From a virus: a stretch of DNA of 25,152 bases. The stretch spans positions 1 to 25,152 of the IMG/VR virus record IMGVR_UViG_3300034082_003727; one strand, given 5' to 3'. The notes under the pieces were generated by a model, which was given only the letters and a program-made list of their open reading frames with translations, searched no databases and was not told the origin of the DNA. Shown here in pieces: positions 9,276 through 25,152 of this stretch. How positions within the stretch are numbered: position 1 is the first letter of the stretch; the number at the start of each line of letters is the position of its first letter. A program made the translations under genes and the position numbers.

Positions 9276-9635
9276 ATGGTAGGAAATAACAACGAATTTC
9301 ACATCAAAAGAAATGATACTTTACCTGTTTTAAAAATGCAGCTTATAGATAGAAGTTGTTTAGGGAGTAGAATTCCTTTTGATTTAACTGAAGTATCTAA
9401 CGTTACATTCACAATGAAGAATTCTTGTGGAGATATTAAGATAATGGCTAAACCAGCTCAAATACTTTCTTTTAGTGGGGGTGTAATTCAATATAATTGG
9501 GATGCTGAAGACACAAGCGACTCAGGTTTATTTGAAGCTGAATTTCAATTAACATATTTAGATGGAAAAAGACTATCTATTCCTCAAATAGGATCCATTA
9601 GAATTGAGATAGAAAAAGACGTTAATCCTTATTGA
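9276..9635 (+). CDS. BppU N-terminal-like baseplate/structural protein, 119 aa
   Basis: The pattern FHIKRNDTLPVLKMQLIDR, then PFDLTEVSNVTFTMKN, GGVIQYNWDAEDTSDSGLFEAEFQLTYLDGKRLSIP and a final SIRIEIEKD matches the N-terminal domain of phage baseplate upper proteins (BppU_N, DUF2479-like). This is a small beta sandwich that in other phages anchors proteins on the baseplate. Here it stands alone, with no C-terminal fibre part. Two extra cysteines (SCLGS, NSCGD) are unusual for the fold. Its last seven bases overlap the end of the convergent GIY-YIG gene. The family call is by pattern recognition; the exact place in the virion is unknown. Confidence 0.7.
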   Translation: MVGNNNEFHIKRNDTLPVLKMQLIDRSCLGSRIPFDLTEVSNVTFTMKNSCGDIKIMAKPAQILSFSGGVIQYNWDAEDTSDSGLFEAEFQLTYLDGKRLSIPQIGSIRIEIEKDVNPY

Positions 9636-10420
9636 TTTTCTTCTTTATATTTCCAGATGAAGCCACCTGCTGATTTTAGTTCTCCTCTAGCTGCAGATGC
9701 TACATTTCCAATATGAAATCCATCTTTTTTTACTTCAGATAAAAATTCATATTCTTTAATAAAATTACCACTTTTATCAAATTGTAGTATAACCTTTCTG
9801 CTTGAGGATGGTTTCCCCCACATTGGATTTTTATCTCCAAGCTGTCTATCACCTTTTCCAAATGCAGGATTTTTTTCTCCAATATTATGTTGTCTTATTT
9901 TTTCTTTAACTTCTTCTGGATGCAATCTTCCTGTTTGAGATTGCCTCATTTTCTCTTTTGTTAAATCTGCTTTTTCTTTTCCCATTCGCTCTTCTAAAGT
10001 GATTCCCTTTCTAGAATTTGACAATTCTTGTTTCATTTCATCTGTCCATTTATTTCCAAAATTTGGATTGTTTTCTCCGCTGTTTGCTTTGCTTATTTTT
10101 TTTCTAACATAATCTGAATGTTCATTCAATAAAGGATCTTTTAAATTATAAACTTTATCGCTATTAATTCCTCCATAAAAATCAATCCAATATTTTTCCC
10201 TTTCGTTAAGCATATTTTCATCTAACACTTCCTCTATAATATTGTATTCAAAATTATCAAAACCGTATTTATTAAATGATTTTTGTAAAATATCATTATG
10301 ATGTCTTCCTTTTTTTATATTTATTAAATGATCATAATATCTTTGTTTTAAACGTTTTGACTGACCAACATAAACTTTGTTGTTGATTGTGTTTCTAATA
10401 ATATAAATTCCTATATTCAT
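9629..10420 (-). CDS. GIY-YIG homing endonuclease with NUMOD modules, 263 aa
   Basis: This is a free-standing site-specific nuclease of the kind that spreads itself between phage genomes. The catalytic domain is at residues 1-90: GIY at 4-6, the YVG variant of YIG at 17-19, QRYYDH with the catalytic Arg near 27, and LNEREKYWI with the metal-binding Glu near 73. Residues about 105-215 carry NUMOD3-type DNA-binding units (SGENNPNFGNKWTDE, GEKNPAFGKGDRQLGDKNPMWGK). The C-terminus, FDKSGNFIKEYEFLSEV to GGFIWKY, is a NUMOD1/IENR-like unit. I chose the ATG at 10418-10420. The frame could start at a TTG at 10496-10498, but that would span a terminator hairpin. The gene fills the junction between the fibre operon and the converging tail-tube cluster. 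Confidence 0.88.
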   Translation of the reverse strand: MNIGIYIIRNTINNKVYVGQSKRLKQRYYDHLINIKKGRHHNDILQKSFNKYGFDNFEYNIIEEVLDENMLNEREKYWIDFYGGINSDKVYNLKDPLLNEHSDYVRKKISKANSGENNPNFGNKWTDEMKQELSNSRKGITLEERMGKEKADLTKEKMRQSQTGRLHPEEVKEKIRQHNIGEKNPAFGKGDRQLGDKNPMWGKPSSSRKVILQFDKSGNFIKEYEFLSEVKKDGFHIGNVASAARGELKSAGGFIWKYKEENQ

Positions 10421-10431
10421 AATTTTTAAAT

Positions 10432-10461
10432 AAAAAAAACAGAGACTTTTTTGCCTCTGTT
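10432..10461 (-). terminator. Terminator after the 458-aa fibre-type gene
   Basis: AACAGAG (10438-10444) pairs with CTCTGTT (10455-10461), with a ten-base loop. On the minus strand it runs into eight U residues. It lies between the fibre-type gene and the GIY-YIG start, so late transcription should mostly stop before the endonuclease. Confidence 0.8.
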
Positions 10462-10470
10462 TATAAATAG
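10462..10470 (-). promoter_or_regulatory. CTATTTATA element before the GIY-YIG gene
   Basis: An exact copy of the recurrent element, unusually far (41 bases) from its ATG and with the terminator hairpin in between. This arrangement may place the hairpin in the leader of the endonuclease mRNA. Confidence 0.35.
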
Positions 10471-10494
10471 TTAAAAATTTAGTAAATTCCACCG

Positions 10495-11871
10495 TCAAAA
10501 CGATCCCCCATCTAAAATATCCTGTTCGGTAAGAACTCTAACACCATTAGGCGAGCTCACAGTTCCTGATTCTCTAAGGTATATATCATTTAAATTAGTA
10601 GCGAAACCTCTATTTGAAACTGTTGTTCCTGTACCTCTAATATCTAAGAAAACATCAGTACCAGCAACACCAGAACCATCTTGTATAGACCAACCAGCTC
10701 CAAGAGATGTAGATTCTGTAGAAGCTGTTGGGTTGTAGTTTAATTCTATAAAATTATCTTCTATATACAACTGAGAAGTAAAACCACTTATAGATTCCCC
10801 CATTATAAGCAAATCTCCATTAATAGTTAATGTTGTACCTGTTTGACCTGCTACTCCAAAAGTTGCATGTAATGCATTCAGTGTATCAGTATTTTGATCA
10901 TAAGTGAATCCAGGCTCATCAACCAATCTACCACTAGTTCCGACATAAACAACTCTACCAGCTGTTAAACTAGAGTCTGTAAATCCAGTTGCAGATACTA
11001 ATCCTAAAAAAGTAGGAGAAGTTGCAACATTTACAATTGGATTTGATGCCGTTCCTCCTATAGTAATATTTGAACCTGCGCTTATCGAATCAACAAATAT
11101 ATCATACAGATTCGTTGACCCTGAATATATCGTACCTCCACTTATTTGAGTTGCAGTTAAGTTCCCACCAGTTGCAACACCTGAAAACGATAAATTATTT
11201 ATAGAAGGAGAACTTACAAGACTTACTATGGGGTTTGAAGCAGTTCCTCCTGTTGTGATGTTTGAACCAGGTTGTACGTTTGTAATATTTTCAGTAGAGT
11301 TAGCAATATTATAAATTATTGTCTCTAGTGAAGTGCCAGCTGAATAAAAACTTGTTGTTGCAGAAACATTAGTCGCTATTGAATTTCCACCTATTGATGT
11401 TCCTGAATAAGTAATATTATTAACAGAAGGAGAGTCTACAAGATTTACTGTAGGATTGTCTGCAGTTCCTCCTGTTGTGATGTTTGAACCAGGTTGAACT
11501 CTTGTTGTAACACCTTGAATATCTGTAATATTACCTAATACAAACCCATTTGTTGTTCCGCTTAAGAATTTTCCAATCAAACCTGACCCTGATGTAGAAC
11601 CATATGTTGATATAATCCCAGTATCTCCGCTTACTACAAAATTACTATTAACACTTAATCTGTTTGTTACTTTTTGATTATAAATAGTTGAACCTACTTC
11701 GAAAACACCAGCCTGGTTAGATGTTTCGAAGCCACCACCTGTAACACCAGAAAATTTTAAAACACCGTCATATAGGTTTACAAAAGGTTCTCCAAATAAT
11801 GCTGTTCCAGGTACAGAGCCCCCAGTTGTTTGTTTGTCTCTAAGGGTTATACGAACTTGTCTTTCTGCCAT
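10495..11871 (-). CDS. Fibre-type virion structural protein, 458 aa
   Basis: The N-terminus MAERQVRITLRDKQTTGGSVPGTALFGEP is related to that of the 830-aa fibre, but is followed by a domain with FVNLYDGVLKFSGV. The middle contains repeated units of the form VQPGSNITTGGTA.NP(T/I)V, three of them clear (near residues 122, 197 and 265), separated by NNITYSGTSIGGN-like strands. The C-terminal 100 residues read LYIEDNFIELNYNPT, then GAGWSIQDGSGVAGTDVF, and end ILDGGSF. The 183-aa upstream neighbour ends similarly (LEGGNW) and shares the FSGTSTGGN and LYSGSTNL(E/Y)DIF segments, so the two are probably partial paralogues. It is likely a tail fibre or whisker-like protein; the exact role is unknown. 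Confidence 0.7.
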   Translation of the reverse strand: MAERQVRITLRDKQTTGGSVPGTALFGEPFVNLYDGVLKFSGVTGGGFETSNQAGVFEVGSTIYNQKVTNRLSVNSNFVVSGDTGIISTYGSTSGSGLIGKFLSGTTNGFVLGNITDIQGVTTRVQPGSNITTGGTADNPTVNLVDSPSVNNITYSGTSIGGNSIATNVSATTSFYSAGTSLETIIYNIANSTENITNVQPGSNITTGGTASNPIVSLVSSPSINNLSFSGVATGGNLTATQISGGTIYSGSTNLYDIFVDSISAGSNITIGGTASNPIVNVATSPTFLGLVSATGFTDSSLTAGRVVYVGTSGRLVDEPGFTYDQNTDTLNALHATFGVAGQTGTTLTINGDLLIMGESISGFTSQLYIEDNFIELNYNPTASTESTSLGAGWSIQDGSGVAGTDVFLDIRGTGTTVSNRGFATNLNDIYLRESGTVSSPNGVRVLTEQDILDGGSF

Positions 11872-12570: not shown

Positions 12571-14358
12571 TTAAAAAACCATTTCAAATCTTAAATTTCC
12601 ACAATCCCAAATTCTATCCATCCCAAGAATTTGAGCTATTTCCCATTCAGATACATTTGGAATATTTAATATTTTTAATAATTTATTTTTATTAAACTTA
12701 AACCTATGATGTCTTTTTAAGTAGTCTCCTTTTTCAAAATACCAATATCTAGGTTTTATTTGATTTGTTAAAATAAATCCGTTTTTGTGGTAAACGGTTT
12801 TTTCATAATCTACTCCACTAAATCTACAATCAGAAAATGTTATTATTTTCTTTGGTTGGTAATTATTTATAAAAAACTTTAATAATTTAGAAAATGCCCC
12901 TACAACACTATAATCTATTAATGAACAAAATCTTGTAAGCTCGTAAAAATTTTCACTATCTTCTTTGTTGCCCATAGATTTCCTTAACTTAATAAAAGTC
13001 ATAACTGATACTAATTTGTCATCATAATATAAACCAATTCTCACTTTATCTTTTGAATTGCCTTGTATGTGGTTATCGTTTAGAAATTTAGTTTTATCTA
13101 ACAGCGAAACATCTCTTATACTACATTTTCTAGCATATAACTTGTTGTCTATAAAACCTAACTTGTTTTTAATCATAGACATTAATATATCTTTTTTAAA
13201 AATTATCTCATCTTCAAATATATGAATCAAATCAATATTCTGTTTGTTACATAAATTTGTTTTATTTATGTGGTAATCTTTTGTTTTATCACCTCCAATT
13301 TCTGAATGATAATAATTTCCATTTAATTCTAAAGCTATTTTTTTTTCTGGAAAATAAAAGTCTAATTCAAAAGGTTTTATTTCTGTTTTTGTATTTTCTT
13401 TGAATGATATATCTATATTTTTAAAATATTCAGCAAATTCTATCTGATGTTTGTTGTTTTTATACATCGGATAACACGATCTACATATTGGAGGTCTATG
13501 GTTTGAAAAAGTGCCAAAATATTTATGGTTGCATTTTTTACACCTAAATTCATATTCATTATAAACGTTTCCGACTCTTAATCCTTCATATTTGCTTATT
13601 AATTCTATTTCCATGGTTTCCATCTTATCAAAAATTATAGTATCATCAAAATTATCGTAATACGTTTGCTTTATTTTTTCTATAATTTTATGATTTTGAG
13701 AAGGGTTTTTAAAACCATATACATTTAAGTTTGTATTTTGAAATTTGTTTAATATTTCTTTATTTTGTAGTGGATGTAAAACTCCGTAATTTTTAAATAA
13801 AGTTTTTTTTTGCTTTTCTTGATATTTAACAAGCATCATAGCGTGATTTACGCCATAATCCTTATTCATTGTCTCTTTTGCTTTTATTCTATTATTATAG
13901 TTCTCATCTCCGTATTTTTCTTTCTTTGTCTTTTTTGATTTGTCTAAATTATTATAGTTCTCATCTCCATATTTTTCTTTCTTTGTCTGTTTTGATTTGT
14001 CTAAATTATTATAGTTCTCATCTCCGTATTTTTCTATTTTTGTTTGTTTTGATTTGTTTTTAATAAAATCCAATTCAAAAATATTTTCTGTACCAAATTT
14101 TTCCTTCAAAGAATTTAAAGACTTTTCAATTCTTATTTTTTTATTTTCAGGTAACAAAGCATAAGATTTTCTACATTCATCTGAGCACATTGTTTTTTTA
14201 GTGCTTTTTTTCACCTCAAAACTTAAATTACACTGAATGCAGACTCTATATTCCCTATTGTTTTTCTTTTTAAACTCATCAGAACATTTTCTAGAACAAG
14301 TCTTTTGTTCTTTTGGTTTTTCAAACTCAGAATTACAATTGATACATTTTAATTTCAT
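12571..14358 (-). CDS. Hef-like homing endonuclease with zinc ribbons, Vsr-like nuclease and GNAT-like domain, 595 aa
   Basis: Two CxxC...CxxxC zinc ribbons occupy residues about 5-65. Next come YG-x-EN repeats of the DNA-binding type common in phage endonucleases (about 85-225), including three nearly identical 19-residue copies. A third CKKC...CRSC pair lies near 272-294. Residues about 305-385 form a Vsr/PD-(D/E)xK-like nuclease: FELDFYFPEKKIALELNGNYYHSE, followed by the chain that ends IDLIHIFEDE. Residues about 405-560 (IGLYYDDKLVSVMTFIKLRKS, KIITFSDCRFS, KPRYWYFEKGD) resemble the GNAT-like domain often fused to this family. It lies between the sheath gene and a fibre gene, behind the sheath terminator. 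The leader holds a perfect hairpin. The domain calls are by eye; nuclease activity is inferred. Confidence 0.8.
   Translation of the reverse strand: MKLKCINCNSEFEKPKEQKTCSRKCSDEFKKKNNREYRVCIQCNLSFEVKKSTKKTMCSDECRKSYALLPENKKIRIEKSLNSLKEKFGTENIFELDFIKNKSKQTKIEKYGDENYNNLDKSKQTKKEKYGDENYNNLDKSKKTKKEKYGDENYNNRIKAKETMNKDYGVNHAMMLVKYQEKQKKTLFKNYGVLHPLQNKEILNKFQNTNLNVYGFKNPSQNHKIIEKIKQTYYDNFDDTIIFDKMETMEIELISKYEGLRVGNVYNEYEFRCKKCNHKYFGTFSNHRPPICRSCYPMYKNNKHQIEFAEYFKNIDISFKENTKTEIKPFELDFYFPEKKIALELNGNYYHSEIGGDKTKDYHINKTNLCNKQNIDLIHIFEDEIIFKKDILMSMIKNKLGFIDNKLYARKCSIRDVSLLDKTKFLNDNHIQGNSKDKVRIGLYYDDKLVSVMTFIKLRKSMGNKEDSENFYELTRFCSLIDYSVVGAFSKLLKFFINNYQPKKIITFSDCRFSGVDYEKTVYHKNGFILTNQIKPRYWYFEKGDYLKRHHRFKFNKNKLLKILNIPNVSEWEIAQILGMDRIWDCGNLRFEMVF
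13891..14061. repeat. Three tandem 57-bp units inside the endonuclease gene
   Basis: Units start at 13891, 13948 and 14005. They differ by only a few bases and each encodes 19 residues of the pattern KYGDENYNNLDKSKQTKKE. More diverged family units flank them on both sides, so the near-identical block looks like a recent in-frame amplification of a DNA-binding repeat. Confidence 0.9.
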
Positions 14359-14486: not shown

Positions 14487-17165
14487 CTAAAAATCTTCAA
14501 AATTTGCTCCAGATGGTAAAACTTGGAACGTTAAATCTATAAATTCAGCAGTTCTAGTAGGTTTAAGTTGAATCTTACCAACCAATGTATTTCTATCAAT
14601 TGTTTCATTTGTGTTATTTGAATCATCCATAACTACTTTGAAGGCTGTTAAACCTCTTTGGTTTTGAATTTGCAATAAAATAGGCTCTACTTTTGCTAAG
14701 AATTGATCTCTTAATGTTTGATCATTTTGTTCGAATACTAAAGTTTGAGAAGCTGAAGCTACTAATCTTCTAACTTGTATCAGTAATCTTCTAACGTTAA
14801 TTCTATCAAGAGCAGATTGTCTAACTTGAAGAGTTTTTTGACCATCAATCTTAACACCAACTTGAATTGATGTTGCAATTGGATTTACCCTACCTTGATA
14901 TAAAGTGTCTCTATCTGTTTTCTTAAGCTTAACATCAGCTCTTATAACATTAGTTGGAGCAAGACCTCTAAGTTCACCTGCAGGCGCAATCCAAGGAGCT
15001 GCAACATTATCTGTATAAGCCATACTTCTAACTACCATAAATGTAGGTGCTTGATATGTGTATTTACCGCTTGTCGAATCTTGAACTTGAACCCAAGGCC
15101 AATAAGTTGCAGCATAATTAGAGTCAATACCTGTAGACTCAAGAATAGATACAACTTCATCTGCAGTACCCTTTTCTGTTCCAACAGTTAATCTAGGAGC
15201 ATCAATAATATATAATGTATCTGCTCTATCTTCTATAATTTCAAGAGCGTAATTTACAATTGAGTCATTATTAGAATAATCTACACCTGGTGTTGCAAAT
15301 AAGTTAATGTCTACTTCTTCAGGGCTAGCTATTAAATCAATACCAGCTTTAAATGCGTTAACATTATCTACATAAGCATCTGTAAATTCTTCATATAAGT
15401 TATCATACTGTTTATATTTATCCCATCCATCAAAACCTCCTGCTGGAGCAACTGTAAATTTAAGAAGAGATTTATCAATTAAAGTTCCAGCAACATTTGT
15501 ATAAGCTGTTAAATTATCTTTATTACCACTTACGAAAGTATTTGCATCTGCTGTATTTTCTAAATGGAAACCTTTGATTGAAGTATTACCTGAAGAAACT
15601 GCTCCGTCATATGCAAATAAATCAAATTCTAAAGATTTAACTGAATTTCTTACAGATACTTGACTTTGAGTTAAACTTGTGTATCCAAGCTCAGAAAGAC
15701 CAAGGTAAGTTTTAAATTTAGAATCTCCAGATAAATATTCAGTTTTATAATAAACATCAGTTGAAGTGATGCCACTAATTCCAGAATCTCTCAAAGAATA
15801 ACCCTCAAATCCTGCAGGTACAGTATTTACTGGATGATTTTCTTCCATATCAACAGTAATAAACATTGATTTTCTAGGGAAAGACTCATCTGTTGTACCG
15901 ATTATTTTTGCAATATAATTAGGTTGTTCAGGGTTTAAAGAAACGTTTGACCATCTTTCTAATGCTGTTGAAGAAGCTGTTGCGTCAGTATCAAAATAAT
16001 TTCTAACAATTAAATCAAAAGTATAATTTACAATATCAATATTTGCAATAGATATTTTTATTTCATTTGAAGATGTATCTCCATCTGAAATCGTTTGAAC
16101 TCTAAACAATCTTCTTACGTTAGAACCAATTACTCTAGAAACGATCCAAGGAGTTATTGCGTTTGAATAAGAATCTTCGAAGTCTGTATAAGCAGCCTCT
16201 GTAGAATAAACTAAACTAGGGTTAATACCTGTAATTTCCTGTCTAGCTGCAGCTTCTCTAATGAAATGAGGATAAATTCTTTCCACATAAAAATCAGGAT
16301 TACCATTAGTTACCTCAGGACTTTTACCTAATATTTTAACGATATAATCATCACGTGTTTCGTCTAATGAAAATGTATAACCGCTATTTGTAACAGCTGT
16401 TAATGGCCCAGTTGAAGCTGATAAAACAAACGGAGCTAAAGCAGATGTTGTAGCGCCAATAGTAATTTGATTTTCAGCATTGTAGAAGAAATTTCCTGAA
16501 ATTTGGCTCTTTTTACTTCTAATTATTGCTAATGTTGAACCTGATTTAGAACCTCTTGTTTCTACATTTGTTGCAGCTAAAGTAACTGTAGAAGCACTAA
16601 TCGCTGTTGTATCTCCACCCGTTGTGGTAATTCCTAATGCTGTAAATCCTGCACTTGCAGTAAGACCTGTCAATAACTGATAAGAAGTTGTAGGTGCTTG
16701 AAACCCTACAAAAGTATTATTTCCTACTGTTGTTGCAGTAACTGTTCCAGCTGTACCAACAGCTCCTGATAATACAATAGTGTAAGTAGTAGGTGAAGTT
16801 AAAGAGTTTTTACTAAAAGTAATGCCACTTACGGCTGTAGAACCCTCATACTCTACAGACATATCTGCAGCAATAACCCAAGCAGGTGAATTTTGGAAAC
16901 CAGTTGTACCTAAAATTCTTACCACGTTCAATTCATTTGATTGAGATAAGAAAGAGTTAGCAACGTAAGGCATAGGATATTTTACATTGGTACCTCCGAA
17001 TCTTAAAAGATACTCATCCGTGCTTGTAATTTTTATGTTTTCAAACGCAGGTCCTTTTAGAGTTTTACCAACTAATCCTAATCTAGTGATACCAATTCTA
17101 GATGCAAAAACTGAAAAGTCTTGCTCTTTTGTATATACACCTGGTGAAACGAATATTGTAGCCAT
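14487..17165 (-). CDS. 18: Tail sheath protein, gp18-like, 892 aa
   Basis: This is the contractile sheath subunit. The N-terminus ATIFVSPGVYTKEQDFS is the classic sheath opening, followed by IGITRLGLVGKTLKGPA and the FGG...YVANSFL segment. The C-terminal region holds the conserved sheath core: APAGELRGL, LYQGRVNPIATSIQVGVKIDGQKTLQ, INVRRLLIQVRR, and the final VVMDDSNNTNE...GKIQLKPTRTAEFIDLTFQV. It is much longer than T4 gp18 (659 aa). The extra length falls in Thr/Ser/Gly-rich segments at about residues 110-270 and in the middle, which probably form surface protrusions. It starts 11 bases after the 94-aa gene and has its own strong terminator. The tube gene, usually next to it, is on the other strand. 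Confidence 0.93.
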   Translation of the reverse strand: MATIFVSPGVYTKEQDFSVFASRIGITRLGLVGKTLKGPAFENIKITSTDEYLLRFGGTNVKYPMPYVANSFLSQSNELNVVRILGTTGFQNSPAWVIAADMSVEYEGSTAVSGITFSKNSLTSPTTYTIVLSGAVGTAGTVTATTVGNNTFVGFQAPTTSYQLLTGLTASAGFTALGITTTGGDTTAISASTVTLAATNVETRGSKSGSTLAIIRSKKSQISGNFFYNAENQITIGATTSALAPFVLSASTGPLTAVTNSGYTFSLDETRDDYIVKILGKSPEVTNGNPDFYVERIYPHFIREAAARQEITGINPSLVYSTEAAYTDFEDSYSNAITPWIVSRVIGSNVRRLFRVQTISDGDTSSNEIKISIANIDIVNYTFDLIVRNYFDTDATASSTALERWSNVSLNPEQPNYIAKIIGTTDESFPRKSMFITVDMEENHPVNTVPAGFEGYSLRDSGISGITSTDVYYKTEYLSGDSKFKTYLGLSELGYTSLTQSQVSVRNSVKSLEFDLFAYDGAVSSGNTSIKGFHLENTADANTFVSGNKDNLTAYTNVAGTLIDKSLLKFTVAPAGGFDGWDKYKQYDNLYEEFTDAYVDNVNAFKAGIDLIASPEEVDINLFATPGVDYSNNDSIVNYALEIIEDRADTLYIIDAPRLTVGTEKGTADEVVSILESTGIDSNYAATYWPWVQVQDSTSGKYTYQAPTFMVVRSMAYTDNVAAPWIAPAGELRGLAPTNVIRADVKLKKTDRDTLYQGRVNPIATSIQVGVKIDGQKTLQVRQSALDRINVRRLLIQVRRLVASASQTLVFEQNDQTLRDQFLAKVEPILLQIQNQRGLTAFKVVMDDSNNTNETIDRNTLVGKIQLKPTRTAEFIDLTFQVLPSGANFEDF

Positions 17166-17498: not shown

Positions 17499-18218
17499 TC
17501 ATTTCCCACTTTTCTTCTCAGAAATTTTAATTGAAATCTTATTAATTGTATTAACCCTCTCAAATGAAGCAGGATCTAAAAGCTTTCCATGAACAGTTAT
17601 TGGGACTGTTATTTGATATAATTTCTCTGACGCTAACTCCTCTTGCAGTGTCTGAGAAGGGTCTGATATTTTTGAAGCTATATGGTGTCCGTTTATATTT
17701 AAATACCCTTGACCGTTTGAATATCCGTCTCTTAATATTTTTTCATAGTAAGCGTTAACATCAACAAAATAATAAGCAACTAGTATCATATCATATTCCA
17801 CATCAACCCAAGTAGGTTGCGGTATTTTATATAAATAATAACCTTTTAATGTACCATCAAAAGTTGGAACCTTAACAAATTTAAATTGTTTTTTCACTGG
17901 AACCGTTCTTTTCAAAGGGGAAGTTCCAGGTTTTACAGTTTTTCTAGCAATAGCAATAAAAGGTCTAGATAACTCTTCTCCATACTCAAATCTAAAATCT
18001 TTCCAATTCATTTTTTTTTCAGCCCACAATTCTTGAGCTAAAAATATCACTGGAACTGTTTTTTGATTTCCTGTCTCGTCTTCTACGGTTAAATTAAGAT
18101 TTTTTATATAATCTACTATTGCTAAATCTATATCTTCTAAGAAAATACCTTGTGGGAGATAATTATGATTTTCAAAATCTTTATCTAAATTTTTCCCTAC
18201 ATTATCTAGGATTGACAT
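17499..18218 (-). CDS. Tail completion / sheath stabiliser, gp15-like, 239 aa
   Basis: The segment KGYYLYKIPQPTWVDVEYDMILVAYYFVDVNAYYEKIL at about residues 120-160 fits the central region of gp15-type proteins, in which a 'P-x-P-I-x-x-x-Y-x-h' strand leads into a helix. It is preceded by RPFIAIARK and followed by ITVPITVHGKLLDP. T4 gp15 (272 aa) caps the tail and joins it to the neck; the length here is similar. Synteny agrees: it lies between the neck genes and the sheath. The N-terminus SILDNVGKNLDKDFENHNYLP resembles that of the gp14-like neighbour (SDLTEIGKNPENFDSHEALP), which is curious. The call is moderate; overall identity to T4 gp15 is clearly low. Confidence 0.55.
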   Translation of the reverse strand: MSILDNVGKNLDKDFENHNYLPQGIFLEDIDLAIVDYIKNLNLTVEDETGNQKTVPVIFLAQELWAEKKMNWKDFRFEYGEELSRPFIAIARKTVKPGTSPLKRTVPVKKQFKFVKVPTFDGTLKGYYLYKIPQPTWVDVEYDMILVAYYFVDVNAYYEKILRDGYSNGQGYLNINGHHIASKISDPSQTLQEELASEKLYQITVPITVHGKLLDPASFERVNTINKISIKISEKKSGK

Positions 18219-18235
18219 AATTTAACTAGTTATTT

Positions 18236-18245
18236 TAAATAAATA
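18236..18245 (-). promoter_or_regulatory. CTATTTATT element before the gp15-like gene
   Basis: This differs from the exact element in the last base only and lies about 18 bases before the ATG at 18218. It sits at the left edge of the gene-free stretch, back to back with the plus-strand promoter that begins at 18256. Confidence 0.4.
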
Positions 18246-18255
18246 GTTTTAAAAA

Positions 18256-18287
18256 TTTGTAATAAATAATTCTTTGTATTATATTTG
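18256..18287 (+). promoter_or_regulatory. Bacteroidota-type promoter for a plus-strand RNA
   Basis: TTTG at 18256-18259 and TATATTTG at 18280-18287 are separated by exactly 20 bases. This matches the Bacteroidota -33 (TTTG) and -7 (TAnnTTTG) elements. Initiation would fall near 18293-18295. No open reading frame follows, which points to a non-coding transcript. The same spacing and the same -7 octamer occur at the only other clean site in the window (23516-23547). Confidence 0.7.
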
Positions 18288-18293
18288 TCAAGG

Positions 18294-18498
18294 ATTTTTT
18301 ACTTTATATCTCGTTTTTCTTAGGGGCGTTGATTTCGGATATAAAGGTTTTGCACTGGGAATATGGTAGTATATTTAGGTGAGAAATTAAAAACTAACAT
18401 CCCCTTACCTCGGTGACTAAACTAGTCATTTTGCTTGGCAAACAGAAGTTTTTCATACTTTTGGGGGGTAAGGGGGGCGTTCAAGTTTTTTAATTTTT
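18294..18498 (+). ncRNA. Candidate structured non-coding RNA, about 205 nt
   Basis: In a 357-nt gene-free stretch, the RNA predicted from the promoter at 18256-18287 folds throughout. (1) CTTTATATC (18302-18310) pairs with GATATAAAG (18338-18346), 9 perfect pairs. (2) CACT (18353) with GGTG (18378), and inside it AATAT with ATATT. (3) A long closing helix: ATTAAAAACT (18386) with AGTTTTTTAAT (18484, one bulge), AAC with GTT, and CCCCTTACC (18401) with GGTAAGGGG (18467), 9 perfect pairs. This helix encloses three hairpins: TGACTA/TAGTCA (18414-18428), TTTGC/GCAAA (18430-18442) and AGAAGU/ACUUUU (18444-18462). The 3' side of the helix ends in T-rich sequence to about 18498, like a terminator. 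No known RNA family is recognised. It runs opposite to the flanking late genes. Confidence 0.7.
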
Positions 18499-18501
18499 CC
18501 C

Positions 18502-18527
18502 TAAAAAATTGGTAGTAAAAATACTAC
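18502..18527 (-). terminator. Weak terminator-like hairpin after the gp14-like gene
   Basis: GTAGTA (18512-18517) pairs with TACTAC (18522-18527). On the minus strand a short U run (18503-18508) follows after CAA. The stem is A/T-rich and short, so termination would be partial. It stands between the gp14-like gene and the structured RNA locus; the rest of 18528-18575 is plain A/T-rich sequence. Confidence 0.45.
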
Positions 18528-18575
18528 ACTTAAAGTAAAGAATATTACTATAAGTAATAATAAAAAATTAAATTT

Positions 18576-19145
18576 TTATCTACCTTGGAAGATATCTTCA
18601 TCAATTTCTACAGCTTTTATAGTTACAAAAAACCTTCTATCACCAGCCCAAGAAAATTCATTTGATATTTGAGAATACCCATCATCAATAATTTTATAAA
18701 ACTGTCCTTTATAACCAATAAAATGACCCATTTTAATGCCAGAAACAATAACGTTTGTACCTTCTTGTTTTGTGATTAATTCCAGCTCTTCTAGTTGATC
18801 TATATAGATATGAGCAGTTAAGTTACCTAAACCTTTTTTCTCAATACCACCACCCACTTGATAAGTTGGCTCTTGTGATTCTACATTTATTCTGCCAAAT
18901 ATTTGTATCTCTGGAAGCCAAACTTTTCTTTTTGATTCTCCGTATAGTTTATGTGTTTTTGTTTTTTGCAAATCTATTCTATACAACAAAAAACTTTCTT
19001 GAAGTACACCCTCAGTAATTTCTCTACCTGAAGCAGAGAAAAAATTTCTTTCTTTTTCACCAAAAAAAAGTTTAATTCCTTTTGGAAGTGCCTCGTGAGA
19101 ATCAAAATTCTCAGGATTTTTACCTATTTCTGTTAAATCTGACAT
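18576..19145 (-). CDS. Neck protein, gp14-like, 189 aa
   Basis: The protein starts SDLTEIGKNPENFDSHEALPKGIKLFFGEKERNFF. Its core, ESFLLYRIDLQKTKTHKLYGE at about residues 50-70, resembles the 'hhYY-x-R...LYGE' start seen in gp14-type neck proteins. The strand-rich second half includes MGHFIGYKGQFYKIIDDGYS, and T4 gp14 also has a 'GDLIYFPMDNSLFEI' strand pair there. T4 gp14 is longer (256 aa). It lies five bases downstream of the gp13-like gene, the T4 order. The family call rests on synteny and weak pattern similarity; another neck or connector protein is possible. After its stop comes the gene-free stretch with the structured RNA. Confidence 0.5.
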   Translation of the reverse strand: MSDLTEIGKNPENFDSHEALPKGIKLFFGEKERNFFSASGREITEGVLQESFLLYRIDLQKTKTHKLYGESKRKVWLPEIQIFGRINVESQEPTYQVGGGIEKKGLGNLTAHIYIDQLEELELITKQEGTNVIVSGIKMGHFIGYKGQFYKIIDDGYSQISNEFSWAGDRRFFVTIKAVEIDEDIFQGR

Positions 19146-19151
19146 AAAAAA

Positions 19152-20345
19152 TTAAAATACTGATATACCCATAGGACCAAAGCCTAATGTTTTATTAATT
19201 GATTCTTGCATTAAAGCTCTTTTCTCTAATATTTTTTCATAAGATAATTCAGCTAGTTGCAAATTTAGCTCTTCTATTAACTTTGTTTGATCTTCCCTAC
19301 CAGTATTAATCAAATCATCTTTATTTAGCGTTAATTCAGCTCCTGGTATAGGTAATTGACCATTAAATTTACCTCTAATACCTAATCCAAGAATTTCTTT
19401 ACATAAAGCAAGGGAATATCTTTTAACCCATCTTTGAGCAACAGAGTTTAATTGATTCCAAGTTATAAAGTTTAATTGAACATCAGCTGGTGAAGAAACA
19501 AGTCCATTTCCTTGATTTCCTGACATACTACCTGAGTAACCACTAAATCCTGGATTTGCAGTATTTCCACTATATAATGGATTTCCATAATAATTTTCTT
19601 TATCATAGTAGTAATAAAATACAGTCCCAGGAGTTCCAAATCCACCACCAATTCCCATATTTGCACCAGAAGTTGCATTTGTAGGGTAAGGTATAGGTAA
19701 TAATTTTAATGTTTTTGTACCATTTGGCCCAGGTTTAAGTACATAAGAATATTCAGACCCTCTAACTCTATTTCTTAATTCAGCAGCTTGTGCTGTTAAT
19801 AAAGTATCAAAAACAGGCATAACATGATATAATGTATGTCCAGCAAATGATGCTCCAAACTCAGTAAAGGCTATGTTTGTATTAGCAAATGGATCTAAAC
19901 CAAATAAATTAACAAAACTAGGGGTAAACCAAAGAACTTCATTAACTTCTCTTCCTGAGGGTATTGTATAGTCTTGAGTTCCAGCAGTCAATACTATTGA
20001 ACCAATTTTAGACTCTCTAACGCTATCAGCTCCTAAGCCTACTTGCTCTCCATACGAAGTTGCAAATGATTTTTCAAAATATAGACTATTAGAAACATAT
20101 TTAAGGGTGAAATCATATTCAGAAGGTAAACCTAACATTTCACCTAATCTATTATTTATAACCCAATTATTTATAAACGTTGAATATTCTTCAATAGCCA
20201 TACAAATAGCTTCTTCGACTTGCTCATTATCAAGTTCGACACCCATAACTGGTTCTCCAAGAAAACGTCTTATCCTACGAATAAGCTTTGCTCTATCGTT
20301 TTCTGGCATTTCATCTAAGCAACCATCTGCACAAAATACTCCCAT
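19152..20345 (-). CDS. Neck protein, gp13-like, 397 aa
   Basis: The N-terminal segment RAKLIRRIRRFLGEPVMGVELDNEQVEEAICMAIEEYSTFINNWV is a helical connector-type opening found in gp13-like neck and adaptor proteins, with the telling 'LGxPV-x-VEL...AIxxAIxxY' pattern. The C-terminal helix region (QRWVKRYSLALCKEILGLGIRGKFNGQLPIPGAELTLNKDDLINTG) also suits this family. Between them is a Gly/Asn/Tyr-rich insert (about 225-290, with YYYYDKENYYGNPLYSGN). T4 gp13 is 309 aa; the insert explains the extra length. It would close the portal after packaging and join head to tail. It lies 12 bases after the 92-aa gene, upstream of the gp14-like gene. Confidence 0.72.
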   Translation of the reverse strand: MGVFCADGCLDEMPENDRAKLIRRIRRFLGEPVMGVELDNEQVEEAICMAIEEYSTFINNWVINNRLGEMLGLPSEYDFTLKYVSNSLYFEKSFATSYGEQVGLGADSVRESKIGSIVLTAGTQDYTIPSGREVNEVLWFTPSFVNLFGLDPFANTNIAFTEFGASFAGHTLYHVMPVFDTLLTAQAAELRNRVRGSEYSYVLKPGPNGTKTLKLLPIPYPTNATSGANMGIGGGFGTPGTVFYYYYDKENYYGNPLYSGNTANPGFSGYSGSMSGNQGNGLVSSPADVQLNFITWNQLNSVAQRWVKRYSLALCKEILGLGIRGKFNGQLPIPGAELTLNKDDLINTGREDQTKLIEELNLQLAELSYEKILEKRALMQESINKTLGFGPMGISVF

Positions 20346-20644: not shown

Positions 20645-20653
20645 TATAAATAG
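20645..20653 (-). promoter_or_regulatory. CTATTTATA element before the neck operon
   Basis: An exact copy with the shortest spacing, only eight bases from the ATG at 20636. If it were a -10-type promoter, the transcript would have almost no leader; this is the strongest argument for considering a role at the RNA level instead. Confidence 0.45.
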
Positions 20654-21393: not shown

Positions 21394-21405
21394 AGGGTAA
21401 AATCA
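21394..21405. repeat. Downstream copy of the GTAAAATCA direct repeat
   Basis: AGGGTAAAATCA differs from the two upstream copies (AGGCGTAAAATCA) by loss of a single C and has the same orientation. It overlaps the stop codon of the 702-aa gene. Confidence 0.55.
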
Positions 21406-23511
21406 TATTTTAATTGCATGTATTAGAAGTTGTTTTTTTGTATCTTTTTTTGTATAATGACTCTTTCTTACATTATAGTTTTCTATTTCTACAATTTTAA
21501 ATCCTGATTTTTCTAATGTATTTAAAATAGATTCTGAATATAACTCCTTTATGTCAATAACTATTCTACTATTATTTTTTAAATATAAAAAACAGTTATT
21601 AAAAACAGGTGTTAATAAATTATCTTCCCACTCTTTTATATTTTCATATACAAAAGAGTCATAAGAGTAAATTTCATCGTTATAAAAAGGAGGTGAGGTA
21701 AAAATAAAATCAATATTATTAATTAATTTACGATTTAATTCAGTAGATGTTTTAAAGTTAATATCTATATTAGAATGATACATATCATCAAACTCTAAAT
21801 TTATCAATTTACTATATCCTGTTTTTAAATCTTTGTTTATATCATTTCCAATGTATGTACAATTTTTATTTTTTATTAAATTTTTTAATGATGTTAATCT
21901 AGAACCCCAACCTATAAATGGATCATATATTTTTGAATTTTCATTTTCTATATATTTTTCATATATTTCTTTAGATTGTTTTATATAAAATATACCTACA
22001 TTAAACATACTTCTAACTTCTAGTCCTCTATATAAATTTTTTATATTTAAATCAAAATATTCATTTGAATTATTAAAACCTAACCTATATTCAACAGTTT
22101 TTTTTAATATTTCATCATTATTGTTGTTAAAAAAATCATCTATATTCTTATTTCCTATTTTTTTTGCAGTATAAAACTCTTTGAAAAATACACCTTTTAA
22201 TTTAAACTCAGCTTTTCTAGTGTCTAAATCTACAAATTTTTCGCACTGATGGTGATTATAGAAGTTTTTCCATAAAAAAACTATATTTTGTATTAAATTA
22301 TTTTTATTCTTCTCATCAATTAAATCTCTATTTTTAATGCATCTATTTATATCAAATATAGAAACATTTTCCTTTAAATTAAAAAGAATGTGATTTTCTA
22401 TATTGAAATTCTCTTTAATTAAAAAATTAAAAAATTCATCTTTAGATTTTATGTTTTTTAAATTATTTTCATTAATAGAAATATCTTCTATTAATCTATA
22501 TATTTTATTTTTTGGTTTGATTATTGTTTTTTTATAATCGTTAATAATATTATTAAAGACAGAATAATGCCAATTTGAATCTCTGTCATGCCCATGCCAA
22601 AAAATACCATCACATTCTATAAATAAATTATATTCTGGAATAAAAAAATCATAAACATAACCATCTGATTGTTTTTGAGGTATAAAATCTATTTTCAATT
22701 CACTTAATTTATTTAAAATAAGTACTTCTATTTTTGTGTTTTTAAATTTAAAATTATTAAAATTACCAGAATTTAATTTTAACTTATCTATAGTGCTTTC
22801 TGAATTAATAGTTTCCCCAAAAACTTCTTTATATTTTTTTATAGAAATACCATGTTTTTTTAAATGTGTATTTGTTATGCTTTTTAGTGGTTCATTACAA
22901 ATTTTACAAATAATATGGTTTTCATTTTTAGACAATACCTCCAATCTATCTTCTCTTTTAGATAAATGTGTCTTAAAAAGAAAGTCTTGATCGTTGAATT
23001 TGTTTAAATATTCATCTACGTTAATATTATGACTCTTTGCTATATGTTTTGTTAAAGACCCTGATTTGTTATTTAAATCATTAGATTTCCAATTGCAAAT
23101 TAAACAATTTAACATAGGTTTACTTTTTTCTGTCTTTTCTTTTATTATAAAAAAATCTTCATACCAAAATTTCCCAGTTTTTAATTCTGTTTTTTTTCTT
23201 AAAAATTTACTTTCCAAAACAAAATTAGGATATATTTCTTTTATATGTGTTGTTAGTTTACCTGACAAGTTTAGATAATCATCATATATTTTTTTAGTTT
23301 TTTTACAAATAGCCTCATAATTAACATTTTCTTTAAATCTATTTTTTATTTTTCCATAACCATCATTCAATAAACCTTCTTTGTTTAAAAAATTCGTTAT
23401 AAACGTTTGAGAATATTTAGTATATCTAGAAATTGACCTTAATGATTCACCTTCTTTAAATAATTTAACTATTCTAACACTATCTTCTTGTTTTAAATTT
23501 ATCTCTTTCAT
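21403..23511 (-). CDS. Vsr-like homing nuclease fused to DNA methyltransferase, with HTH and zinc fingers, 702 aa
   Basis: One unbroken chain carries several parts. Residues 1-50 look like an HTH (VRIVKLFKEGESLRSISRYTK). Two C2H2 fingers follow: C136/C139/H156/H161 and C202/C205/H216/H220, the second like MucR/Ros fingers. A Vsr-like (EDxHD-type) nuclease spans about 255-345, with Asp288 in YDFFIPE and ECDGIFWHGH at 299-308. The C-terminal third is a class I DNA methyltransferase: YDPFIGWGSRL (529-539, the SAM-binding motif I), GNDIN near 555, and TSPPFY (605-610, motif IV of N6-adenine or N4-cytosine enzymes). It could cut unmodified DNA and protect its own. The gene sits between the capsid terminator and the 223-aa gene, with its own host-type promoter. 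The domain calls are by eye; activity is inferred. Confidence 0.82.
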   Translation of the reverse strand: MKEINLKQEDSVRIVKLFKEGESLRSISRYTKYSQTFITNFLNKEGLLNDGYGKIKNRFKENVNYEAICKKTKKIYDDYLNLSGKLTTHIKEIYPNFVLESKFLRKKTELKTGKFWYEDFFIIKEKTEKSKPMLNCLICNWKSNDLNNKSGSLTKHIAKSHNINVDEYLNKFNDQDFLFKTHLSKREDRLEVLSKNENHIICKICNEPLKSITNTHLKKHGISIKKYKEVFGETINSESTIDKLKLNSGNFNNFKFKNTKIEVLILNKLSELKIDFIPQKQSDGYVYDFFIPEYNLFIECDGIFWHGHDRDSNWHYSVFNNIINDYKKTIIKPKNKIYRLIEDISINENNLKNIKSKDEFFNFLIKENFNIENHILFNLKENVSIFDINRCIKNRDLIDEKNKNNLIQNIVFLWKNFYNHHQCEKFVDLDTRKAEFKLKGVFFKEFYTAKKIGNKNIDDFFNNNNDEILKKTVEYRLGFNNSNEYFDLNIKNLYRGLEVRSMFNVGIFYIKQSKEIYEKYIENENSKIYDPFIGWGSRLTSLKNLIKNKNCTYIGNDINKDLKTGYSKLINLEFDDMYHSNIDINFKTSTELNRKLINNIDFIFTSPPFYNDEIYSYDSFVYENIKEWEDNLLTPVFNNCFLYLKNNSRIVIDIKELYSESILNTLEKSGFKIVEIENYNVRKSHYTKKDTKKQLLIHAIKI

Positions 23512-23627: not shown

Positions 23628-25152
23628 TTAGTAAGTATTGATATTATCGATGTAGATAACTCCGTAAAATCTGTTATTAACCATCTTTTTAGCATATCTC
23701 GTCATAATACCTTTACGTGGAGTAAAGTCATTTGGATCGTAGATAGTTTGAGTCAACTGAAGAGGAATATATGGTGCGTAGATATAACCAGCTTCCAAGA
23801 AAGTGTTACCTTTGTGACCTAACAACACGATTGGTGCAGGTAAATAAGGATCCTTGTAAACTACATATCTTGAACCAAGATTACCAATTTTCTCAACACC
23901 CAAGTTGTATTTTTCAGACTCTGGTTGAGCTGACCCATCAACGTGGAAGTATTCTAAATCGTCAAAAATAGCACCAGCCTCAGCAGAACAAACGATCCAG
24001 TTAGCACCACCTCTTAAAGTAGATTTATGGATTTGAGCTGAAAGTTCGTTTACTCTTGTAATAAGAGTTTGGTTCCAGTCTTTTTGAGTTCCGAAGAAGT
24101 TAGCATTGTTTGAAAGACCTTTGTAATCCCATTTTGCTCTGAATGGAGCTTCATTGATAAGGTCGATGATGATTTCTCTATCAATCTCAGCAGCAATGTG
24201 CTCAGAAAGAAGAGCTGTTAACTCAGCCTCAGCATCAATTGAGTGGTATGCTTCAAGATCTTGAGCTAATTCTGGAGTCCAGTGTGCTCTTAATTTTCTT
24301 GTTGCAGTATTAACTGTAACAGAAGAGAATCTAATAGTGATTTCACCCATTTCAGATTTACCTTCTAAGCTGTTGAAGATTTCGTATGCAGGAACGAAGT
24401 TAAGTGCGAACACTGAACCAAATTTACCAGCACCATCATTCAATAAAGCAGCGTTAAAATCTGTTCCATAAACTCCAGCAGGTCTTAAATCAAGAACAAC
24501 TTTAGCAGTTCCGTTAGCGAATAAATCACTTGCATAAGTTTGAATTTGAGAATAGAAAGGAATTCTTCCTCCAGCAGCAACTACAAGACTGTTTCCATTT
24601 GCACCTGAATAGTAAATATTAGTTACAGCAGAGAATCTTAATGTAGCTGAAGATTGAGAAGTTGAAACGTCCCATCCAGCACCTAAAGTGAATGTTCCAG
24701 CATAAATACCGTTAGAGAAAGAGTTAGCTGATAACGTAGTTACAGCAGTACCTAAAACTGTATTTCCTGTTCCAAAAGAAAGGTCAAAACCTCTATTGTT
24801 GTAGAATCTTTCGTATGCAGTTGTATCTGCAAAAGTTGGTCCAGCTTGTCCATTAGCAGTATTAGCAGGAGCTACTTTGCTATAAGATCCAGCACCTGAG
24901 TTATCAGGGAAGATAGGGTTAACTGGATTGTTAAGTGTAGAGTCAGTTCCATCGAAAGATACTCTTGCGTCCATATAGAACAATAACCCTGAAGGTAATG
25001 CTAATGGTTGTACAGATACAATCTCATTAGCCAATAATCTAGAGAATACTCTTCTTACGATAGGGAAAGCAACAGTATCGAATCTACCAGCAGATGAATC
25101 AAGAGTTACCTCGTTCAACATAGCTTGTGCTTGATTTTCCATTAATTGCGCC
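23628..25152 (-). CDS. 23: Major capsid protein, gp23-like (N-terminus beyond the window)
   Basis: This is the main head shell subunit. TRKLRAHWTPELAQDLEAYHSIDAEAELTALLSEHIAAEIDREI closely follows the T4 gp23 pattern (ELAQDL, HxxDAxAEL, EIxRE). RRVFSRLLANEIVSVQPLALPSGLLFYMDARV matches its 'FDICGVQPMNSPTGQVFALRAVY' region, and the C-terminus (IYAPYIPLQLTQTIYDPNDFTPRKGIMTRYAKK) matches as well. The first in-window ATG is at 25140-25142, but the frame stays open to the right edge (codons for Ala-Gln-Leu precede it). T4 gp23 has about 50 more residues before this point, including the prohead protease site, so the true start is probably outside. Codon use is smoother and less A/T-rich than in the endonuclease genes, as expected for a highly expressed protein. 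Confidence 0.95.
   Translation of the reverse strand, partial: AQLMENQAQAMLNEVTLDSSAGRFDTVAFPIVRRVFSRLLANEIVSVQPLALPSGLLFYMDARVSFDGTDSTLNNPVNPIFPDNSGAGSYSKVAPANTANGQAGPTFADTTAYERFYNNRGFDLSFGTGNTVLGTAVTTLSANSFSNGIYAGTFTLGAGWDVSTSQSSATLRFSAVTNIYYSGANGNSLVVAAGGRIPFYSQIQTYASDLFANGTAKVVLDLRPAGVYGTDFNAALLNDGAGKFGSVFALNFVPAYEIFNSLEGKSEMGEITIRFSSVTVNTATRKLRAHWTPELAQDLEAYHSIDAEAELTALLSEHIAAEIDREIIIDLINEAPFRAKWDYKGLSNNANFFGTQKDWNQTLITRVNELSAQIHKSTLRGGANWIVCSAEAGAIFDDLEYFHVDGSAQPESEKYNLGVEKIGNLGSRYVVYKDPYLPAPIVLLGHKGNTFLEAGYIYAPYIPLQLTQTIYDPNDFTPRKGIMTRYAKKMVNNRFYGVIYIDNINTY

Follow-up and report, generated by a model that had tools for sequence, protein, structure and literature searches.

The stretch of DNA analysed here, referred to as the window (25,152 nt; positions 1-25,152 of IMG/VR record IMGVR_UViG_3300034082_003727, an uncultured T4-like phage), contains between two of its neck and tail genes a structured RNA that represents a family new to Rfam, and within this RNA two repeat units remain matched in sequence even as both drift between phages. 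That the locus is an independent, previously undescribed structured non-coding RNA gene, as put forward by the original prediction, is strongly supported by its own conserved promoter, by compensatory changes in its helices, by an asymmetry of G-U pairs and by the lack of a match in Rfam. With regard to its function, we tentatively favour the view that the RNA acts in cis as a transcript-primed start of replication, a possibility to which we would not yet give even odds.

The RNA gene is located in a 357-nt gap (18219-18575) of the T4-like late region and is oriented opposite, i.e. head-on, to the late neck and tail genes on either side (Table 1). The right-hand neighbour gave no match in PHROGs or in the phage collection. 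Upstream of the RNA, nearly all relatives have a TTG-N19-21-TAnnTTTG arrangement at the equivalent position. The gap, the plus-strand promoter (here resolved as TTTG-N20-TATATTTG) and the orientation against the late genes all stand as predicted. Plus-strand coding within the gap was rejected, since there is no ORF of at least 60 aa and the sequence changes track the stems. The candidate late motif CTATTTAT, a T4-late-like ATAAATA motif when read as its reverse complement, has 13 matches in the window versus 4.0 expected, many of them just upstream of gene starts; further coding-strand sites lie at 20646, 21347, 23527, 12474, 11888, 8101 (plus-strand ATAAATAG) and 9258 (minus). From reading their sequences, the regions 9629-10498, 12571-14358 and 21403-23511 among the late genes likely encode homing endonucleases and an endonuclease/methylase-like protein.

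Table 1. Features of the RNA gene and its surroundings (positions are those of the window).
Feature	Position	Strand	Remarks
Sheath gene	14487-17165		phrog_23
Tail-completion-like gene, left neighbour, before sheath gene	17499-18218	minus	named from position; conserved neighbour in relatives
CTATTTAT, candidate late-promoter or leader motif	18239-18246	minus (late-gene strand)	21 nt before tail-gene start codon; divergent to RNA promoter
Bacteroidetes-type housekeeping promoter	18256-18287	plus	TTTG 18256-18259, 20 nt, TATATTTG 18280-18287
RNA body, just after the -7 element to CCCTAA	18288-18504	plus	predicted ends; fold z -4.4; conserved in ~30 contigs
Hairpin H1	18302-18346	plus	CTTTATATC 18302-18310 pairs with GATATAAAG 18338-18346, perfect 9 bp
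Box 1 copy 1, GGGGCGTT	18323-18330	plus	in H1 loop
CACTGGG and hairpin H2 (ATAT-GGTAGT-ATAT)	18353-18374	plus	contains box 2 copy 1 (TGGTAGTA 18364-18371)
Helix P3	18401-18475	plus	CCCCTTACC 18401-18409 with GGTAAGGGG 18467-18475, perfect 9 bp; pair probability 0.91-1.0
G6-TAA-G6 tract	18463-18477	plus	P3 3' strand; from alignments
Box 1 copy 2, GGGGCGTT	18474-18481	plus	
Rest of repeat unit 2	18486-18517	plus	U-run 18486-18498, CCCTAA 18499-18504, box 2 copy 2 TGGTAGTA 18510-18517
Neck gene, right neighbour	18576-19145	minus	named from position; conserved neighbour in relatives
Head-tail adaptor match	19152-20345		
Major capsid Gp23	23628-25142		

Relatives were fetched from IMG/VR via the two flanking proteins, and a motif scan gave one more lineage. 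An RNA of this kind is present in approximately 30 IMG/VR contigs, in every case flanked by the same neck and tail genes and in the opposite orientation to them, and the proteins of the phages that share it are down to ~46% identical. No cultured relative was found in the phage collection, neither by DNA nor by the neck/tail proteins. The capsid protein alone matches this collection, weakly, namely to Rhodothermus phage RM378 and Flavobacterium phage immuto, and this weak likeness together with the promoter type suggests a host from the Bacteroidetes. In immuto, no annotated gap separates a pair of successive structural genes that could be counterparts (putative homology). A scan of GTDB with the tail-protein alignment gave no relative, and the three matches that the RNA motif produced there were all due to chance. 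In Rfam 15, no covariance model reached its gathering score in the window and a permissive scan returned chance matches, while in 15 relatives the only Rfam matches were tRNAs in L021. As ARAGORN likewise reported 0 tRNA/tmRNA genes, a known RNA family was rejected.

The plus strand folds with -65.4 kcal/mol compared to -45.5 +/- 4.5 in dinucleotide shuffles (z -4.4; 0 of 200 as good), and the minus strand also reaches z -4.65. Since both strands score alike, folding energy alone cannot give the strand, but covariation and G-U pairs do. Among the relatives, the plus strand has the lower folding energy in 18 of 19 lineages, but the z-scores of the two strands are similar, and in lineage L226 excess stability is absent. 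In a 19-sequence alignment, 8 of 8 pairs of H1 vary on both sides and 90.1% of cells are paired, with a covariation of 0.829 compared to 0.339 +/- 0.041 in shuffled and at most 0.307 in slid versions. The 21 different H1 stems contain 154 Watson-Crick pairs, 4 G-U pairs and no mismatch, and P3 in 20 lineages 173, 15 and 1, respectively, counts in which pairing is partly a matter of selection as the stems were delimited by eye. Together the helices hold 19 G-U pairs and no A-C; because a G-U pair would become an A-C mismatch if the opposite strand were the transcript, the RNA is the plus strand. Paired positions thus change among the relatives with compensation in both helices.

The two perfect 9-bp pairings and the U-rich end that the original prediction had described correspond to H1, P3 and the U-run, and its 3' helix enclosing three hairpins (18414-18428, 18430-18442 and 18446-18460) was recovered as a four-way junction. 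The middle domain inside P3 comprises, by eye, one to approximately five hairpins among the relatives, and because of this variable length, only H1 and part of P3 are recovered by consensus folding when all lineages are put into a plain MAFFT alignment. By eye, UUAGGG and CCCUAA could form a pseudoknot, which we do not claim, as CCCUAA shows hardly any variation and compensatory changes were not observed.

In addition to these helices, each RNA carries twice a ~50-nt unit of the form GGGG(x)GUUG ... U-run ... CnCURR ... GGUAGU (or local equivalent). In the window, the units start at 18323 and 18474, i.e. ~150 nt apart, and have the same order of boxes with similar spacing. They were no part of the original prediction, and the end of unit 2 (TGGTAGTA) lies outside the region 18256-18498 to which it referred. 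The two copies tend to vary together from phage to phage, with GAGGGCGTTAG in both units of L159, GGGGGCTTGGT and AGCTATAC in both of L221, GCTGA in both of L029 and CGTAAAA in both of L016. For hand-cut boxes, with one sequence per lineage, permutation gave p 0.002 and 5e-5, values that are biased by this cutting by eye. A blind test, in which the 60 nt following each of the two G runs were compared in 11 lineages, gave 144.5 observed against 105.2 +/- 8.2 (p 5e-5; z ~4.8 to 5.7), whereas a control of unit 1 against the next 60 nt gave z 1.6 to 2.2. A small same-genome effect hence exists, but it is far weaker than the co-evolution of the two units.

Such co-evolution of direct repeats is not predicted by a simple antisense role and rather indicates a mechanism in cis (R-loop/origin) or a protein that binds two sites. 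We regard a cis-acting antisense brake on late read-through from the neck gene into the tail gene as the least probable of the readings considered here: it would fit the orientation and the host-type promoter, but any unstructured transcript would suffice for it, and the compensatory stems and matched units would be left unexplained. A role in trans, in which an antisense RNA would use two identical seeds to target an RNA of the host or of the phage, is also improbable, although the two matched motifs, the U-rich stretches and the host-type promoter could be put forward for it. Outside the locus, box 1 is almost absent from the long contigs, where at most 1-2 additional short matches occur on either strand (an exception is one contig with the short form GGGGTTG), the second copy of the G-box is largely paired in P3, and a box sequence that varies between phages would demand a target that varies as well. 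A DNA-level element, namely iteron-like protein-binding direct repeats or a packaging or recombination site to which the RNA is incidental, could account for two matched units ~150 nt apart in the window, and direct repeats are also present in T4 oriE; we consider it very improbable, as compensatory helices with G-U but no A-C pairs and the promoter show selection on RNA.

The strongest rival to an origin is an RNA that acts in trans, with units 1 and 2 as equivalent binding sites for a single protein of the phage or the host; it would serve as a sponge, scaffold or packaging RNA whose units follow the changes of the protein. Co-evolution by identity, the order of boxes, the similar spacing in both units and a strong fold with a size-variable middle domain would all be in line with such a role. 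We nevertheless find it somewhat doubtful, because box 1 of unit 1 resides in a hairpin loop and that of unit 2 within or next to the strand of a helix, which would require one protein to read two structures, and because a role in trans does not need a fixed place opposite the late genes.

The origin reading, in contrast, draws on this fixed place. Neither box is specially complementary to the body of its own RNA and the two units share no partner within it, so that alternative intramolecular pairing is unsupported as a cause of the box identity. Pairing of one copy with the template of the other copy would account for this identity, which an intramolecular partner does not. A fixed site, a host-type promoter opposite the late genes and identical units that lack an internal partner would best be accounted for if the RNA recognises the template DNA of its own gene, with formation of an R-loop and priming. 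In this model, host polymerase would make the RNA early and head-on to the late neck and tail genes, and H1 (in part of the family also H2) would display boxes 1 and 2, whose sequences recur unchanged in the downstream unit. The H1 loop presents a U-rich sequence together with the first copy of box 1. Base pairing might then occur between these early boxes and the downstream unit's template strand; alternatively, the nascent hybrid there might owe its stability to the paired G-tracts. A persistent R-loop would form, and its RNA end could prime leading-strand synthesis toward the head genes.

Several findings count in favour of an origin, namely a position that stays fixed even among highly divergent phages, with a host-type promoter in front and the late genes always on the opposite strand, the near-confinement of box 1 to the locus in long contigs, and G tracts that are retained despite variation in the bases they pair with. 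G6-TAA-G6 is invariant in the window's own group, in which the partner strand varies between C and U; in the 16 contigs where the paired G-tract pattern was matched, it is confined to this locus. Against an origin, six long contigs have their switch of GC skew and strand ~20 kb from the locus, the sequence after the RNA is not unusually AT-rich, L159 and L200 have no long G tracts, and box 2 is not always placed in the H2 loop. Skew at fourfold sites around the locus is too noisy to discriminate. T4 oriA and oriC also lie outside the skew switches (PMC3016281), and a distant switch thus does not exclude an origin here.

Other relatives with the same flanking genes have different occupants at this site, most of which share the form of the promoter. 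A second type of RNA, with GACGG...ACACCTG in a 5' hairpin loop, the same promoter and no Rfam match, is found in L017, L042, L044, L045 and L170 (the latter in a 372-kb contig). A third type, possibly related to the second, is defined by a GGCACTAAGnAAyGAG and GTTTGACTwTwGGC stretch that L014 and L206 have in common; in L206, Rfam gave a weak, sub-threshold match to Betaproteobacteria-1 (26.2 bits versus 49.4). No comparable internal repeats were seen in either type, which also counts against an origin. A winged-helix DNA-binding gene occupies the site on the plus strand in L019, L021, L024, L178, L186 and L197, and on the minus strand in L028 and L209, with TATATTCG as the promoter form in winged-helix cases, and its presence is compatible with a protein-initiated alternative. 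We find it unlikely, on balance, that these phages reveal a new class of phage RNA in which two transcript loops recognise matched downstream DNA and replication is started or gated by RNA-guided strand invasion at the gene of the RNA itself, other phages relying at this site on another RNA or on a protein of the winged-helix kind.

Some further observations concern this gap. In L187, L190, L175, L178, L183, L184, L186 and L188, where a winged-helix gene replaces the RNA, AACTCG(A/C)TTATGCGGAAAA and TTG(A/C)GAGTGAAAGGATAA inside the gene are conserved at the nucleotide level and a GC/CG pair step shifts in concert to GA/AG, which suggests an embedded RNA or DNA element. L191 (388-kb contig) has a longer element with a CCCCCTATAG / CTTTAGGGGG pairing that may combine features of the first and second types. 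Downstream of the RNA, L047 has small plus-strand ORFs, and L220 and L226 have a plus-strand gene with an LKHSxRCxVSKTxMK motif that by eye resembles YtxJ-type thiol proteins.

Overall, the present analysis adds a well-supported RNA family that is absent from Rfam and whose locus is fixed throughout a widespread group of uncultured T4-like phages; contigs of >200 kb have other types of RNA at this site. Two internal units that stay identical while both drift represent an unusual and testable rule. If the RNA marks an origin, it would bear on a question left open in the T4 literature, namely what governs R-loop formation at origins, and RNA and protein initiators would be exchanged at one genomic site.

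Among known systems, phi29 pRNA (RF00044) and type III antitoxin RNAs resemble the RNA as phage-encoded structured RNAs of similar size or as repeated RNA units; they differ in that no Rfam match was obtained and that the units here lie far apart in different structural contexts. Tandem repeats next to a toxin gene, as in type III toxin-antitoxin loci, were not found, the next gene in the window being the convergent neck gene. At oriE and the R-loop origins of T4, early transcripts run opposite to late virion genes. R-loops serve for initiation at oriF and oriG, and oriE has an early-mode promoter that needs no phage factor, as well as direct repeats (PMC3016281). The candidate origin described here would share with oriE this orientation, the early-mode promoter, transcript-linked initiation and direct repeats. 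It differs from the cluster of evenly spaced 12-nt iterons of oriE in its two ~50-nt units, which bracket a structured RNA and lie ~150 nt apart, and no rep gene is located beside it; of the features of a T4-type R-loop origin, the promoter is present; the AT content after the RNA is not exceptional and does not discriminate.

In mitochondria, the primer-forming transcript contains at CSB II two long G tracts followed by a U-rich stretch. The same succession is found in the RNA of the window, with no structural or sequence homology and a different polymerase. Mitochondrial transcripts form R-loop primers (PMC6317783), which is what the RNA would do if it acts as an origin. For ColE1, RNA II is a structured pre-primer in which a G-rich hairpin loop upstream pairs with the C-rich template near the origin, with a G tract downstream. 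There is no sequence relation between the two, the box identity here extends beyond G, and the RNA belongs to a phage and not to a plasmid; yet a G-rich hairpin loop that matches a downstream G tract is present in both, and by analogy RNA II would represent the closest mechanism.
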